Below are positions 85 through 5,955 of a stretch of DNA of 33,509 nucleotides, piece after piece. The notes under the pieces were generated by a model that saw only the letters and a program-made list of their open reading frames with translations, was not told the DNA's origin and ran no database searches. This stretch comes from Actinomycetes bacterium (GTDB taxonomy: Bacteria > Actinomycetota > Acidimicrobiia > Acidimicrobiales > Palsa-688). The position numbers and the translations under genes are program-made. Each line of letters opens with the position of its first letter. The first letter of the stretch is position 1. Location: positions 1 through 33,509 of the forward strand of contig JAKBAX010000010.1 of the NCBI GenBank assembly GCA_021808785.1. The letters are read 5' to 3'.

Positions 85-858
85 TTATCGGGCCACCACC
101 ATGCCGCCGTCGGCGATCAGGACCTGGCCGGTGATGAAGCTGCCGGCGTCGGAGGTGAGGAGGAGGGCCGGGCCAACCATCTCGTCGGGGTCGGCCATCC
201 GCTTCAAGAACATGATCTCCGCCATGTTCTGTACCTTCTCCTCGGAGTTGGCCCGGACCATGTCGGTGTCGACCGTCCCCGGGGCCAGGGCGTTCACCCG
301 GATACCGTACTGGGCGTACTCGGCGGCGGCCGATCGGGTATGGGCCAGCAGGCCGGCCTTGCCCACTGCGTACATGGATACCCCGGCCGAGTACATGAAG
401 GCGGCGCCGGACAAGATGTTGAGCACCGCGGCGTGCCTGCTCGCCACGAGATGCGGCAGCGCCTCCTGGACCAGGAATACCGGACCTTTGAGGTTGACGT
501 CGAGCGACTTCTGCCAGGCGTCCTCGGTGTAGGCGCCGACGGTCTGGGTGAGGGCGGTGGCGGCGTTGTTGACCACCACGTCCACCCCGCCGAATTCCTC
601 CACGGTCCGCCGCACCACCTCGGCCAGGTCCTCGAGTCGGGCCATGTGGGCCGGCACCGCGATGGCCTGGCCGCCCATGGCCCGCAGGTGCTCCTCGGTC
701 TCCCTGCAGGCTTCGGCCTTGCGGCTGGCCACCACCACCCGGGCCCCGGCGCTCGTATATCCCTCGGCCAGCGCCCGGCCGATGCCCCGGGTGCCGCCGG
801 TGATGATCACGACCCGGCCGGTCATGTCGAACAGGCTCCTCAACTTCTCCGGGTTCAT
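85..858 (-). CDS. SDR-family oxidoreductase
   Basis: MNPEKLRSLFDMTGRVVIITGGTRGIGRALAEGY: TGGTRGIG nucleotide-binding motif, NNAA, YAVGK active site, C-terminal ADGG. The ORF-track start (1017) is too long; ATG at 858 fits the family N-terminus. Confidence 0.93.
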   Translation of the reverse strand: MNPEKLRSLFDMTGRVVIITGGTRGIGRALAEGYTSAGARVVVASRKAEACRETEEHLRAMGGQAIAVPAHMARLEDLAEVVRRTVEEFGGVDVVVNNAATALTQTVGAYTEDAWQKSLDVNLKGPVFLVQEALPHLVASRHAAVLNILSGAAFMYSAGVSMYAVGKAGLLAHTRSAAAEYAQYGIRVNALAPGTVDTDMVRANSEEKVQNMAEIMFLKRMADPDEMVGPALLLTSDAGSFITGQVLIADGGMVVAR

Positions 859-868
859 GGCCTGGCTC

Positions 869-2080
869 TCAGTACTTGCCGAGGAGCTCTTCGAAGCAGT
901 CGGTGACGTAGCCCACCGCGGTGTCGTCCATCCCGTGGTTGCAGGGCAGGACGAACCCGGCCCGCATGATCTCGTCGGCGCACGGCAGCCCGGCCTCGGG
1001 CACCTTCCACTCGACACCGCGCATCATGGGCTGGCGGGCTGCGTTGCCCGTCCACACCGTGCGGGTGTCGACCTGCTTGGTATCGAGGAAGCTCTGCACG
1101 TCGCCCCGCTCGAAGCCGGCGCCGGCCCGGATGGTGAGCGGGTAGCAGAGCCAGGCGGTGTCGACCTCGGGCAGCTGTCGCGGGAGCACCAGCCGGTCCT
1201 CGTGCTGGCGGAAGAAATCGCTGTAGAGCTCGAAGTTGCGCCGGCGGCGGGCCCTGTTGTCTTCCAGCTTGTCCAGCTGCACCAGCCCGAAGGCCGCCCC
1301 GAGCTCGGATGGCTCGAAGTTCCAGCCCAGCTCGTCGAAGATGAACTGGTTGTCGTAGGGGACCCCGTCGAGGTCCTCCCAGTAGGTCCGGTCCCGGCGC
1401 TTCGAACCGAAGAAGTGCAGCTCCGACCGCCGCCCCCACCGCCGCAGCAGGACGGCCCGGTCCCGCATGTCGAGGTCGTCCAGCATGAGCATGCCGCCGC
1501 CGCCGGCGCAGGTGATGATGTGCGAGGAGGCGAAAGAGGTGAGGCTCATGTGGGACCGCTCCCCGGTGGGCCGCCCCCGGAGGGTGGGGGCCATGGCGTC
1601 GCACGAGTCCTCGATCACGACCAGGCCGTGGCGGTCGGCGATCTCGCGCACCGCGTCCCAATCAGGCACGTTGCCGATCAGGTTGGCACCCAGGATGGCC
1701 CGGGTCGTGGGGGTGATCGACGCTTCGAGGCGGGCCGGATCCACGCAGTAGGTGTCAGCCTCCACATCGACAAAGGACGGGATCAGGCCGGCCCGCACCA
1801 CTGGCGCGATGTCGGTGGAGAAGGTGACCGCCGGGATCAGCACCTCGGCGCCCGGTTCGAGGCCCATCAGCTCCACCGCCAGGTACAGCGCCGACGAGCC
1901 CGAGTTGACCATCACCCCGGATTGCTTGGCGAAGAGGGCGCTGACCCGCTTCTCCATCTGGTTGACCCGGCGGCCCACCCAGAGGCCCCTGTCGTCGCGC
2001 AGCACCTCGACGACCGCCTCGATCTCGCGCTCGTCGTGGACGCTGGCTGCGTAGTACACCCGCTGGTGGGGATTGGGCAT
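869..2080 (-). CDS. DegT/DnrJ/EryC1/StrS-fold PLP/PMP enzyme with His at the Schiff-base lysine position (putative dehydratase/deoxygenase type)
   Basis: Fold motifs VNSGSSALYLAVELMGLEPGAEVLIPAVTFSTD, VVIEDSCDAMAPTLRGRPTG, TSFASSHIITCAGGGG. The SF..K position is His187. Confidence 0.88.
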   Translation of the reverse strand: MPNPHQRVYYAASVHDEREIEAVVEVLRDDRGLWVGRRVNQMEKRVSALFAKQSGVMVNSGSSALYLAVELMGLEPGAEVLIPAVTFSTDIAPVVRAGLIPSFVDVEADTYCVDPARLEASITPTTRAILGANLIGNVPDWDAVREIADRHGLVVIEDSCDAMAPTLRGRPTGERSHMSLTSFASSHIITCAGGGGMLMLDDLDMRDRAVLLRRWGRRSELHFFGSKRRDRTYWEDLDGVPYDNQFIFDELGWNFEPSELGAAFGLVQLDKLEDNRARRRRNFELYSDFFRQHEDRLVLPRQLPEVDTAWLCYPLTIRAGAGFERGDVQSFLDTKQVDTRTVWTGNAARQPMMRGVEWKVPEAGLPCADEIMRAGFVLPCNHGMDDTAVGYVTDCFEELLGKY

Positions 2081-2084
2081 CTGG

Positions 2085-2885
2085 TCAGCCCTCCTTGCTC
2101 GGGCGGCGGTGCCTCGCCGCGTACGCCTTCATGTAGTCCCGGACCTCCTCGGACCGGGCGCCCAGCTCCTGGTTACGGTTCTCCAGGGCGATGGCAGCCG
2201 CCATGCTTCCCACGTCCAGGTTGAGCCACATCACTTCCTTGGTGTTGCGTAGGCCGAAGCGGGTGTAGCCGGCCACCGCCTCGGCCATGGAGACGGCCTC
2301 CGACCAGAGGGCGTCGTCGGCCACCAGGCGCGACACCAGACCCATCCGCTCCGCCTCGGACGCGTCGATGGTGCGTCCGGTGAGGATCAGATCAAACGCC
2401 CGCGCCGCCCCGATCAGGCGCGGCAGCAGGTAGGTGACGCCCACGTCCGTGCCGGTCAACCCGGTCTTGATGAAGGCCGAGCACATCGTTGCCGACATCC
2501 CGGCGATGCGCAGGTCGCAGGCCAGCGTCAGGGCCAGTCCGCCGCCGATGGCCGGGCCGTTGACGGCCGCGATCACAACCTGCGGGGTGGCCCGGAGGTG
2601 CTGGGTCAAATTGGCCAGAAACGCTTGTCCGGTCCGGCCGGCCGGCATGTGGCGGTGCTCTCCCGGCTGAGGGGCCTGCCCCCAGTCGGCCAGGTCCAAA
2701 CCGGCGCAGAACGCCCGGCCCGCCCCGGTGAGGATGACGACCTTGCAGGCGTCGTCGGCCGCCACCTCGTCGAGGGCGTCGTGGAGCCCGGTGACCAGGT
2801 CGAAGTTGAGGGCGTTGAGCCGTTCCGGCCGATCGAGGCGGATGACCCGCACCGAGTCGGACAGGCTTTCCAGCTGGACGTACAT
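2085..2885 (-). CDS. Enoyl-CoA hydratase/isomerase (crotonase) family
   Basis: RLDRPERLNALNFDLV, ILTGAGRAFCAGLDL, AAVNGPAIGGGLALTLACDLRIA, LLPRLIG. MYVQLES start chosen inside the longer ORF. Confidence 0.92.
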   Translation of the reverse strand: MYVQLESLSDSVRVIRLDRPERLNALNFDLVTGLHDALDEVAADDACKVVILTGAGRAFCAGLDLADWGQAPQPGEHRHMPAGRTGQAFLANLTQHLRATPQVVIAAVNGPAIGGGLALTLACDLRIAGMSATMCSAFIKTGLTGTDVGVTYLLPRLIGAARAFDLILTGRTIDASEAERMGLVSRLVADDALWSEAVSMAEAVAGYTRFGLRNTKEVMWLNLDVGSMAAAIALENRNQELGARSEEVRDYMKAYAARHRRPSKEG

Positions 2886-2995: not shown

Positions 2996-4225
2996 TCAAC
3001 CGGCGAAGGTCAGCTCACGGGCGTTGTCGACCATGATGCGGCGCTGGTCGGCGGGGGAGAACGACGCCACGTTGGCGAAGAAGTCCCTCGGCTCGGGGAG
3101 GCCTTCGGCGTGGGGCCAGTCGGATCCGAAGAGGATGCGCTCGACCGGCAGGTAGCGGGCCAGGTCCTCGACGTCGTCCTCGACGAAGGGGGCGACCCAG
3201 CAGTGGTCGATGAACTGCTCGGCAGGATTGCTCCGGAACATCCCGGGGTTCTGGCCGTGCAGCATCTGAAGGGTATGGAGGACGGGGCGGACCCAATCGG
3301 CGCCATTCTCTACGTAGGCGAGGCGCAGGCGGGGGAACCGCTCGAACAGCTTGTGGGCCACCACGACGGTGGCGAAGTCCTGGATGAGGCGGTGCTTCAT
3401 CAGGTGGTACGTGAGGCCGGCCACCCCGTCGGCGGCGTCGCCGTCAGCCGCCAGGAGCGACTGGTTGCCCCCCGTGCCCCAGGTGGCGGCCACCGCATCG
3501 GTGACGTCCACGTAGCCGTCCTCGAAGCCGGCGTGGGCGGTCACGACGACGCCGGCTTCTTGGACCCGGGCCCAGAACGGGTCGAACATCGGATCGGCTG
3601 GCGACCGGGTGCCTGATCGGGTGAATACCGGTCCGTTTCGGATGGTGATGATGCGGGCGCCCCGCTCTGTGCACCATTCCAGCTCGGCCACCGCCCGGTC
3701 CAGGTCGGACAGGGTCAGGAAAGGGACCCCGAAGATGCGGTCCCGGTAGGCGAAGCCCCAGTCCTCGTCCAGCCAGCGGTTGAAGGCCCGCAGCACCTCG
3801 ACGGACGCGTCGATGTCGGGCTGCATGGGACCCTCCATGCACACCCCCTGGGAGGGGAACATCCACGCCGCTTCGAGGCCCTGGGCGTCCATGGCGGCCA
3901 GCCGGGCGTCGCGGTCGAACCACTCCGGATGTTCGGCCGGCACCTCGCAGGCCAACTCGTCGCCGACGCGCGCCTTGTCCGACCTGCCCTGGAAGTATTC
4001 GTACAGGGCGCCGGGGCGGGGCCGCATGTGCACGTCGCCGGGACCGGGGACGATGGGATGGATGCGGTCACCGAAGAAGTACCGGGGCTTGCCGGCCACC
4101 TCCCGCAGCACCACGCCGCGGTCGGCGAAGCGAGGGTCGCGGTGGCGGGTGAAGGCGTCGCTCGGCTCCCAGTAATGGTTGTCGGCGTCGAAGACGGTGT
4201 CGGGGAAACCGGCGTCGTCGCTCAT
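2996..4225 (-). CDS. Amidohydrolase family 2 (PF04909-like) metal-dependent hydrolase
   Basis: VFDADNHYWEPSDAF N-terminus, VTAHAGFEDGY, YVENGADWV, ILFGSDWPHAEGLPEPRDF. ATG at 4225 overlaps the stop of the upstream gene (ATGA). Confidence 0.92.
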   Translation of the reverse strand: MSDDAGFPDTVFDADNHYWEPSDAFTRHRDPRFADRGVVLREVAGKPRYFFGDRIHPIVPGPGDVHMRPRPGALYEYFQGRSDKARVGDELACEVPAEHPEWFDRDARLAAMDAQGLEAAWMFPSQGVCMEGPMQPDIDASVEVLRAFNRWLDEDWGFAYRDRIFGVPFLTLSDLDRAVAELEWCTERGARIITIRNGPVFTRSGTRSPADPMFDPFWARVQEAGVVVTAHAGFEDGYVDVTDAVAATWGTGGNQSLLAADGDAADGVAGLTYHLMKHRLIQDFATVVVAHKLFERFPRLRLAYVENGADWVRPVLHTLQMLHGQNPGMFRSNPAEQFIDHCWVAPFVEDDVEDLARYLPVERILFGSDWPHAEGLPEPRDFFANVASFSPADQRRIMVDNARELTFAG

Positions 4226-5955
4226 CAGTCGGTGCCGTGCAGCAGCAGGCGGCCGGGCGTGGCCTGGGTGCACTCGCCGTCGATGAAAGTGGTGACCCCG
4301 TTGACGATGATCCGGTCGTAGCCGTGGGCCTTCTGGATGAGGCGCCACTCCCCCGCCGGGTAGTCCCACACCCGTTCCTGGGGGCCGCTGTCGACCGTGT
4401 CGGGGTCGTAGACGACCACGTCGGCCGGCGCCCCCTCGGCCAGGAAGCCCCGGCCCGCGAGCCCGGCGGCCACCGCCGGGTAGTAGGAGAGGCGCCAGTG
4501 GGCCTCCTCCAACGACATGATCTGGTGCTCGCGCACCCAGTAGCCGAGCAGCTCGGTCGGGTAGCGGGCGGTGGTGACGAACTTGGTGTGGGCCCCGCCG
4601 TCGCTGACCCCGGGCAGGGCGACAGGCGAGGTGGCGATCTCCTTCATCGACTCGGGCGGGGTCTCGAGCATCTTGGTGGCGAACCCGACCCGGAGCTGCC
4701 CGGCGACGGCTACGTCGAGGAAGGCGTCGATCTCGTGCTTGCCTTCGCGCTCGGCCACCTCGCCGACGAACCAGCCCTCGTACCTCTCCTTCAAGGCGGC
4801 GGCGTCGGGGACGTCGCTCGAGATCCAGTTGATCTTGATCTCCGACAGGTCATAGCCGGCCCCGAAGAGTCCGCCCCGCTCCTCGTGAACCTGCTTCATG
4901 GCGGCCCGTCGCACCGGGTCGGCGAATTTCACCAACTTCTCTTCGACGGTGCCCAGGCAGGCCTCCTTCCAGCACGGCACGGTGTCGGCCAGGTTGTAGT
5001 CCTCGAGGGTGAACTCCGACACGAAATTGGTGGTCAGCGCCTGGGCGAACACCCGCAGGCCCTCCTCCTCGTTGAAGTAGGCCAGCTGCTTCAGGGCGTC
5101 GCGGTGGGTGTACTTGGCCCCGCCGTGCTGGTTGAGGGCGCCATCGGCCAGCAGGGCATTCCAGATGATCGGGCGGCCGCTCTCGCGGGCCATCAGACCG
5201 GCCACCTCCAACGTGCCGGTCAGCTGGGCCACGCCCCGCCCCAGCGATCCCATGGCCCGGGAGAAGGCGATCACCTCCCGGTCGGTCATGCAGTCGGTGA
5301 CCATGGGCGTGCCGTCGAAGTCCAGCTGGACGTTGCCGATCTCGCCCTGGATCTGGGCGCTGAACCCGCATGCCCCGGCCTCCATGGCCTCGACCAGCAG
5401 CCGGCACATCTCGTCGAGCTGCTCGTCGGTGACCCGGTGGGCCTTGGCCTGGTCCACCCCGGCGACGTAGGCGTAGAGGGGGGCGAGGGGGACGAAGGAC
5501 ATGACGTTGACGCCCTTCGGGGTGCGGCCCACGCTGTCGAGGAATTCGGGGAAGGTCTCCCAGTCCCACGGCATACCGGCCTGCATGGTCTTCAGAGGGA
5601 CCGCCTCGTTGCGCGACAGGGCCAGCATGGCCCGATCCCGCTCGTCGGGCTTGCACGGAGCGAACCCGAAGCCGCAGTTGCCGATCACCACGCTGGTCAC
5701 CCCGTGCCAGCCCGACATCGTGCACCACGGGTCCCAGAACACCTGGCTGTCGTAATGGGTGTGCAGGTCCACGAAGCCAGGAGCGACGATGCGACCGGCG
5801 GCGTCGACCACCTCGGCGCCGCCGACCTCGGACGGCTGGATGCGGCCGATGCGGGTGATGCGGCCGGCGGCGATCCCCACGTCGGCCTTGTAGCGGGGCG
5901 TCTGCAGGCCGTCGATGACGGTGCCGCCCTTGATGACGATGTCGAACTCCGACAT
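4225..5955 (-). CDS. N-acyl-D-amino-acid deacylase-like amidohydrolase (amidohydrolase 3 type)
   Basis: FDIVIKGGTVIDGLQTPRYKADVGI, IVAPGFVDLHTHYDSQVFWDP, GVTSVVIGNCGFGFAPC, GVSDGGAHTKF, ADVVVYDPDTV. Confidence 0.93.
   Translation of the reverse strand: MSEFDIVIKGGTVIDGLQTPRYKADVGIAAGRITRIGRIQPSEVGGAEVVDAAGRIVAPGFVDLHTHYDSQVFWDPWCTMSGWHGVTSVVIGNCGFGFAPCKPDERDRAMLALSRNEAVPLKTMQAGMPWDWETFPEFLDSVGRTPKGVNVMSFVPLAPLYAYVAGVDQAKAHRVTDEQLDEMCRLLVEAMEAGACGFSAQIQGEIGNVQLDFDGTPMVTDCMTDREVIAFSRAMGSLGRGVAQLTGTLEVAGLMARESGRPIIWNALLADGALNQHGGAKYTHRDALKQLAYFNEEEGLRVFAQALTTNFVSEFTLEDYNLADTVPCWKEACLGTVEEKLVKFADPVRRAAMKQVHEERGGLFGAGYDLSEIKINWISSDVPDAAALKERYEGWFVGEVAEREGKHEIDAFLDVAVAGQLRVGFATKMLETPPESMKEIATSPVALPGVSDGGAHTKFVTTARYPTELLGYWVREHQIMSLEEAHWRLSYYPAVAAGLAGRGFLAEGAPADVVVYDPDTVDSGPQERVWDYPAGEWRLIQKAHGYDRIIVNGVTTFIDGECTQATPGRLLLHGTD

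Follow-up and report, generated by a model that had tools for sequence, protein, structure and literature searches.

The gene at positions 869-2080 of the window (the whole stretch analysed, 33,509 nucleotides of contig JAKBAX010000010.1 from an Acidimicrobiales bacterium) encodes a DegT-fold protein in which the lysine that binds PLP is replaced by histidine. The protein and its relatives form a real and conserved third lineage of PMP-type (histidine) DegT enzymes, besides E1/SpnQ and ColD, which is unnamed in the libraries searched. With moderate confidence, we propose that the enzyme is a PMP-dependent, Fe-S-free dehydratase or deoxygenase of an alpha-hydroxyketone provided by the adjacent dehydrogenase, with a catabolic substrate that is not a nucleotide sugar. 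The features on which the analysis relies are collected in Table 1.

Table 1. Genes and sequence elements around the His-type DegT gene, in window coordinates
Feature	Position	Strand	Remarks
Classical SDR dehydrogenase	85..858	-	downstream of the DegT gene, 10-bp gap; TGGTRGIG and YxxxK intact
His-type DegT-fold protein, 403 aa	869..2080	-	ORF; PF01041; nearest solved relative E1 dehydrase
WTGNAARQ, residues 343-350	1031..1054	-	Gly345-Asn346 motif as in E1/SpnQ/ColD, not in Lys-type enzymes
Glu256	1313..1315	-	replaces Lys/Arg of 23 of 24 E1/SpnQ/ColD/Lys-type comparators (Cys in the remaining one)
SELHFF, residues 219-224	1409..1426	-	place of E1 Fe-S ligands C251/C253; no Cys
Cofactor loop SFASSHIITCA, residues 182-192	1505..1537	-	Ser182 (phosphate site), Ala184, His187; roles of equivalent residues from PMC5936713
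His187 codon CAC	1520..1522	-	PLP-lysine position, equals E1 His220; alignment, 66/66 members
IEDSCDA, residues 156-162	1595..1615	-	Asp158 (pyridine N), Cys160 (equals E1 Cys193), Asp161
Crotonase-fold protein	2085..2885	-	directly upstream of the DegT gene, 4-bp gap
Amidohydrolase_2 protein	2996..4225	-	upstream; family recurs beside the DegT gene elsewhere
Amidohydrolase_3-type protein	4225..5955	-	

The protein matched PF01041 (DegT_DnrJ_EryC1/StrS) over residues 16-396 (2e-77, 261 bits against a cut-off of 19.8), and its best match among solved structures in a phmmer search was the E1 dehydrase (PDB 3bcx, 5.3e-56). The boundaries given for the ORF in the preliminary description were exact, the strand, which it had left out, is minus, and the motif that it quoted, TSFASSHIITCAGGGG, is present in the protein. 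A scan for relatives with one genome per species returned 27 proteins with identities of 61-86%, every one with the histidine and almost all of them belonging to Acidimicrobiia or uncultured actinobacteria; the same scan also drew in three Lys-type aminotransferases. Whole-genome searches added subfamilies B (about 55-60% identity) and C (45-52%), which brought the family alignment to 66 distinct proteins (29 A, 22 B and 15 C). At E<=1e-45, matches turned up in 69 of 397 genomes from the order, a set that includes a few canonical E1/SpnQ-type proteins, and in another actinobacterial class the family occurs in four genomes out of 297. Two or three paralogues coexist in several genomes; in the host genome the gene in the window is the single full-length DegT match. 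None of the curated families searched names this His-type clade. Canonical E1-type and SpnQ-like (SFYPxHHMTTGEGG) dehydrases with Fe-S cysteines also occur in Acidimicrobiia, at separate loci (L101-L106, L044).

The replacement of the PLP lysine by histidine at residue 187, claimed from the sequence beforehand, is confirmed. The codon, read from 1522 to 1520, falls in the phmmer alignment column of the catalytic His220 of E1, where 3bcx reads SFYPAHHIT and the H220K mutant of E1 (3bb8) has its lysine. Histidine occupies this position in every member of the family at a median pairwise identity of 57%, which places it far beyond a chance substitution. Two relatives from the same genus (L001 and L002, 85-86% identity) carry it as well, and their agreement with all other relatives rules out a sequencing error. 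The only near-invariant lysines of the 66 members are K52 and K271; since both are distant from the active-site loop, no other lysine fits the Schiff-base role, and the alignment gave no candidate for the alternative Schiff-base lysine that the preliminary description had named as grounds for giving up its reading. The protein therefore lacks the lysine by which the Lys-type sugar aminotransferases are defined. In total, 89 positions are invariant or nearly so over the 66 proteins, and the cofactor contacts and His187 are among them, which points to selection on the catalytic site.

An AlphaFold2 monomer model built from a 20-sequence alignment (pLDDT 87.8, pTM 0.88, with the loop 181-200 near 89) has the fold type I aminotransferase fold, with TM-scores of 0.8-0.9 to DegT structures in Foldseek. 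The six best matches were chains of E1 and ColD, ahead of the Lys-type enzymes, with scores that lie close together (E1 0.86, ColD 0.82, perosamine synthase 0.82). For the alignment and the phylogeny we used as comparators canonical RfbH, SpnQ-like and ColD-like proteins of the same order (the SpnQ-like rows being assigned by motif alone), E1 and ColD from the PDB, and Lys-type proteins. In a careful maximum-likelihood tree (48 rows, nine of them Lys-type, unrooted and with long branches), His-type and Lys-type rows were split by a branch with 100/100 support, and the new proteins came out as a single clade (100/100), whose long branch measured 1.3 changes per column. The E1/SpnQ clade (100/100) and the ColD clade (100/99) were both separate from the new clade, and the branching order of the three had a support of just 84/60. 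A larger quick tree agreed with the 48-row tree. This placement on the His side excludes the grouping with ordinary aminotransferases that would have spoken against the initial assignment; together with the dehydrase-specific residues described below, it bears out the idea that the change from lysine to histidine marks the branch of PMP-type dehydrases. Membership of the ColD group was rejected, as the two clades are separate and fully supported. The protein is not RfbH either: it scored 265 bits with the NCBIfam RfbH model (288 bits for subfamily B, 287 for C), below the equivalog cut-off of 423, a true RfbH of the same order scored 700, and three of the four Fe-S cysteines are missing. Labels such as 'aminotransferase' or 'RfbH' on these proteins are probably wrong.

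The cofactor residues S60, G61, F87, D158, S182 and N254 are retained in all 66 members, and Ser62 in all except one, which has Thr. In sugar aminotransferases the equivalent of Asp158 contacts the pyridine nitrogen, those of Ser182 and Ser62 the phosphate, and that of Phe87 stacks on the cofactor (PMC5936713). Fourteen positions are common to the new proteins and E1/SpnQ/ColD and are not found in the Lys types (N59, S62, S63, T89, P93, N137, C160, H187, W215, R217, D243, W310, G345 and N346). We take C193, C251, C253 and C261 of E1 to be its [2Fe-2S] ligands, in agreement with their published spacing. The equivalents of C251, C253 and C261 are absent from all 66 members, and C160, which corresponds to C193, is the sole ligand position kept by the clade; ColD has a cysteine there too. 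The absence of an E1/RfbH-type Fe-S pattern, as initially described, thus holds for three of the four cysteines and not for the C193 equivalent. E1 and SpnQ each have four cysteines for the cluster, and ColD has no cluster (PMC8987622).

Three positions mark the clade, two of them close to where sugar aminotransferases bind glutamate and one usually basic, and at each the customary residue is replaced throughout the family. Residue 184, three before His187, is Ala here and Tyr or Phe in E1/SpnQ/ColD, and its equivalent in ArnB and Spr1654 is a His that helps to bind the gamma-carboxylate of glutamate (PMC5936713). Residue 194 is Gly, Asn or Thr in all members, and Glu in other members of the DegT family, including the sugar aminotransferases. 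The third is Glu256. As far as sequence can tell, these replacements say that the pocket has been rebuilt; with 184 and 194 replaced and a basic position reversed to Glu256, glutamate may not be the amine donor. A reading of Glu256 as a lost pyrophosphate-binding residue was not upheld: the published link of this region to donor or diphosphate binding is loose (PMC5936713), and we therefore use Glu256 as a clade marker only.

The nearest characterised relative by both sequence and fold is E1 (RfbH, CDP-6-deoxy-L-threo-D-glycero-4-hexulose-3-dehydrase), at 30-31% identity. It shares with the new protein the histidine in place of lysine, D161, W215, R217, GN345-346 and C160, whereas the new protein lacks C251, C253 and C261, has A184, I188, a residue other than Glu at 194 and E256, and is not encoded in a deoxysugar operon. 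ColD (GDP-4-keto-6-deoxymannose 3-dehydratase, 2gms) likewise has His for Lys, no set of Fe-S ligands, W215, R217, W310 and the GN motif, but is only 25-27% identical, belongs to a separate clade and has Glu at 194, an aromatic residue at 184 and Arg at 256. The earlier view that the protein would be closer to ColD is therefore right as regards the lack of an Fe-S cluster; beyond that it is not supported, with E1 nearest by sequence and fold, a branching order of low support, and Glu194 and the aromatic 184 replaced. SpnQ (TDP-4-keto-2,6-dideoxyglucose 3-dehydratase) is His-type and PMP-dependent (PMC8987622), as we propose for the new clade, but has the Fe-S cysteines that the clade lacks. 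The Lys-type sugar aminotransferases ArnB, perosamine synthase and Spr1654 have in common with the new protein the fold and the cofactor site (D158, S182, F87 and N254); unlike them, it has neither the Schiff-base lysine nor Glu at 194, and carries dehydrase-only residues instead.

On the minus strand of the window the gene order is amidohydrolase, amidohydrolase, crotonase, DegT and SDR, so the SDR and the crotonase are neighbours as first reported. The crotonase-DegT-SDR trio is syntenic in both same-genus genomes at 83-87% identity (in L001, 84% for the SDR and 83% for the crotonase), where it sits behind a propionate/acetate-CoA-ligase-type gene. The crotonase-fold protein reads AFIKTG, followed by TGTDVGVTYLLPRLIG, in place of the catalytic Glu segment of enoyl-CoA hydratases (QPEI.LG), and is probably not a standard hydratase. 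Just past the end of the SDR gene, positions 24-63 hold a perfect tandem repeat of the 7-bp unit CCGATGG in 5.7 copies. The wider window is catabolic too, with a P450, type III CoA-transferases, a thiolase with a ChsH2-type OB-fold protein, and a luciferase-type monooxygenase.

Neighbour enrichment was calculated on non-redundant loci by comparing genes no more than two places from the DegT gene (175) with genes five to eight places away (193). SDR genes made up 29 of the near set versus 13 of the distant one (p=0.002), ArsR-type regulators 12 versus 0 (p=1e-4) and amidohydrolase_2 genes 11 versus 5 (p=0.07); at E1/SpnQ-type loci the count for SDR was 0 of 23. Further direct neighbours were P450s, TetR regulators, a Zn-dependent alcohol dehydrogenase, GMC oxidoreductases, an amidase and an acyl-CoA ligase, with Gfo/Idh/MocA and AP_endonuc_2 proteins in some loci. 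A thread shared by these loci is a neighbouring enzyme potentially able to produce a ketone. In more than 40 distinct loci no sugar-nucleotide cluster was seen and the neighbours were mostly catabolic; the catabolic setting proposed for the gene in the window extends in this way across Acidimicrobiia and a few other actinobacteria. In one locus (L005:642-4486, same contig as L097), a C-type and an A-type His-DegT gene flank a P450 gene on the same strand, with a divergent ArsR-type regulator, an arrangement suggestive of a heterodimer or of two PMP-dependent steps in succession. Another (L135:3289-13216, genome G460) has a B-type His-DegT gene with the operon of a Dpp-type ABC transporter immediately upstream of it and, downstream, an SDR gene and a 3-ketosteroid-dehydrogenase-type gene. 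Two loci (L088:2502-8159 and L090:7007-12713) have a C-type His-DegT gene followed by SDR, SDR, Gfo/Idh/MocA, SDR and an AP_endonuc_2 sugar-isomerase-like gene, a run for which a cyclitol or keto-glycoside pathway is possible.

These neighbourhoods bear directly on a different reading, in which the protein is a ColD/E1-like 3-dehydrase of a nucleotide sugar whose gene lies apart from any deoxysugar cluster and whose NDP-4-keto substrate is supplied in trans by the NDP-sugar 4,6-dehydratases of the genome. The well-characterised His-type DegT enzymes, E1, SpnQ and ColD, all act on nucleotide sugars (PMC8987622), and all characterised ones that we found use NDP-4-keto sugars (PMC8987622, PMC10440746). 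The statement that no nucleotide-sugar genes are visible is correct for the window and does not extend to the genome, where other contigs encode a GDP-mannose-dehydratase-type protein (1.3e-133) and several nucleotidyltransferases; the notion of a host without nucleotide-sugar enzymes is wrong. An NAD-epimerase-type gene adjoins the DegT gene in one locus (L019). Because nucleotide sugars are made elsewhere in the genome, an NDP-sugar substrate keeps some probability, but we consider it unlikely: it has to be set against the mostly catabolic loci, the rebuilt pocket (Glu256 for Lys/Arg, Ala184 and the changed 194), and the two or three paralogues of several genomes, which would be odd for a single O-antigen step. 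From the sequence, a catabolic substrate that is not a nucleotide is likely.

E1 and ColD begin in the same way: PMP and the ketone condense, the histidine takes a proton from C4' of PMP and the carbon next to the ketone loses its hydroxyl (PMC8987622). In E1 the intermediate is then reduced via Fe-S clusters (PMC8987622), and in ColD it is hydrolysed and PMP is reloaded from glutamate (PMC8987622, PMC10440746). The residue set of the new clade fits the shared first half and argues against the electron route of E1. For the protein in the window we infer PMP binding, the reaction, the recycling step and the class of substrate as follows. PMP would be held non-covalently through Asp158, Ser182, Ser62 and the stacking Phe87, and would form a ketimine with the carbonyl of the alpha-hydroxyketone made by the adjacent dehydrogenase, here the SDR. 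His187 would take the C4' proton and drive the departure of the adjacent hydroxyl. Since the E1 iron-sulphur cluster is missing, the enzyme would finish without electron transfer, as ColD does, with hydrolysis to a deoxy-ketone, ammonia and PLP. Conversion of PLP back to PMP would draw on an amine donor. A ColD-type ending on the SDR-supplied alpha-hydroxyketone is the simplest reading. With Glu194 and the aromatic 184 replaced throughout the family, ColD-type recycling is uncertain and its dependence on glutamate doubtful, and the unusual donor-site residues leave room for another amine donor or for a redox-neutral dehydration.

In the redox-neutral case the enzyme would be a PMP-dependent dehydratase without net deoxygenation, PMP serving as a covalent amine catalyst by which a hydroxyketone undergoes elimination or isomerisation; PMP would be regenerated as the Schiff base is hydrolysed, and neither an amine donor nor a reductant would be needed. 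Such a cycle accommodates the loss, in all 66 members, of both the Fe-S ligands of the E1 ending and the glutamate-linked residues of the ColD ending alongside retention of His187 and the cofactor site, but we know of no characterised DegT protein that works by this route. We rate it as improbable, marginally more so than the nucleotide-sugar substrate, since elimination by E1 and ColD oxidises the cofactor carbon, which then has to be reduced or reloaded (PMC8987622). A non-catalytic or regulatory B6-binding protein descended from the dehydrases, to which the loss of glutamate-site residues, the adjoining small ArsR/TetR regulators and the lack of a known enzyme activity for the family might point, is very improbable given the near-invariance of the cofactor contacts and His187 and the placement of the gene among enzymes in an operon.

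For the preferred reading, a PMP-dependent alpha-hydroxyketone dehydratase or deoxygenase, the conserved neighbours give conflicting cues, and we therefore name no substrate: a KstD-type protein (L135), the ChsH2 OB-fold protein and thiolase of the window and an LEH-fold protein (L081) are steroid- or terpenoid-like cues, Gfo/Idh/MocA and AP_endonuc_2 (L088/L090) are sugar- or cyclitol-like ones, and the Dpp-type system (L135) is a transporter cue. As the neighbourhoods differ among the subfamilies, their substrates may differ too. The literature, in a search with partial coverage of journals that counts as weak evidence, yielded no non-sugar His-type DegT enzyme. To our knowledge, there is no earlier case of E1/ColD chemistry outside nucleotide-sugar biosynthesis, and this would be the first if true. 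A deep and widespread sister clade, a rebuilt pocket and catabolic operons together suggest that this route for taking out a hydroxyl beside a ketone has a wider use. The wider statement, that the whole lineage consists of Fe-S-free PMP-dependent dehydratases or deoxygenases acting on free (non-nucleotide) alpha-hydroxyketones in catabolism, perhaps drawing on some amine donor that is not glutamate or on none at all, is one that we put forward tentatively. If true, it would put a name to one biochemical step in Acidimicrobiia, whose metabolism is poorly known, and would provide a deoxygenase that needs no iron-sulphur cluster.
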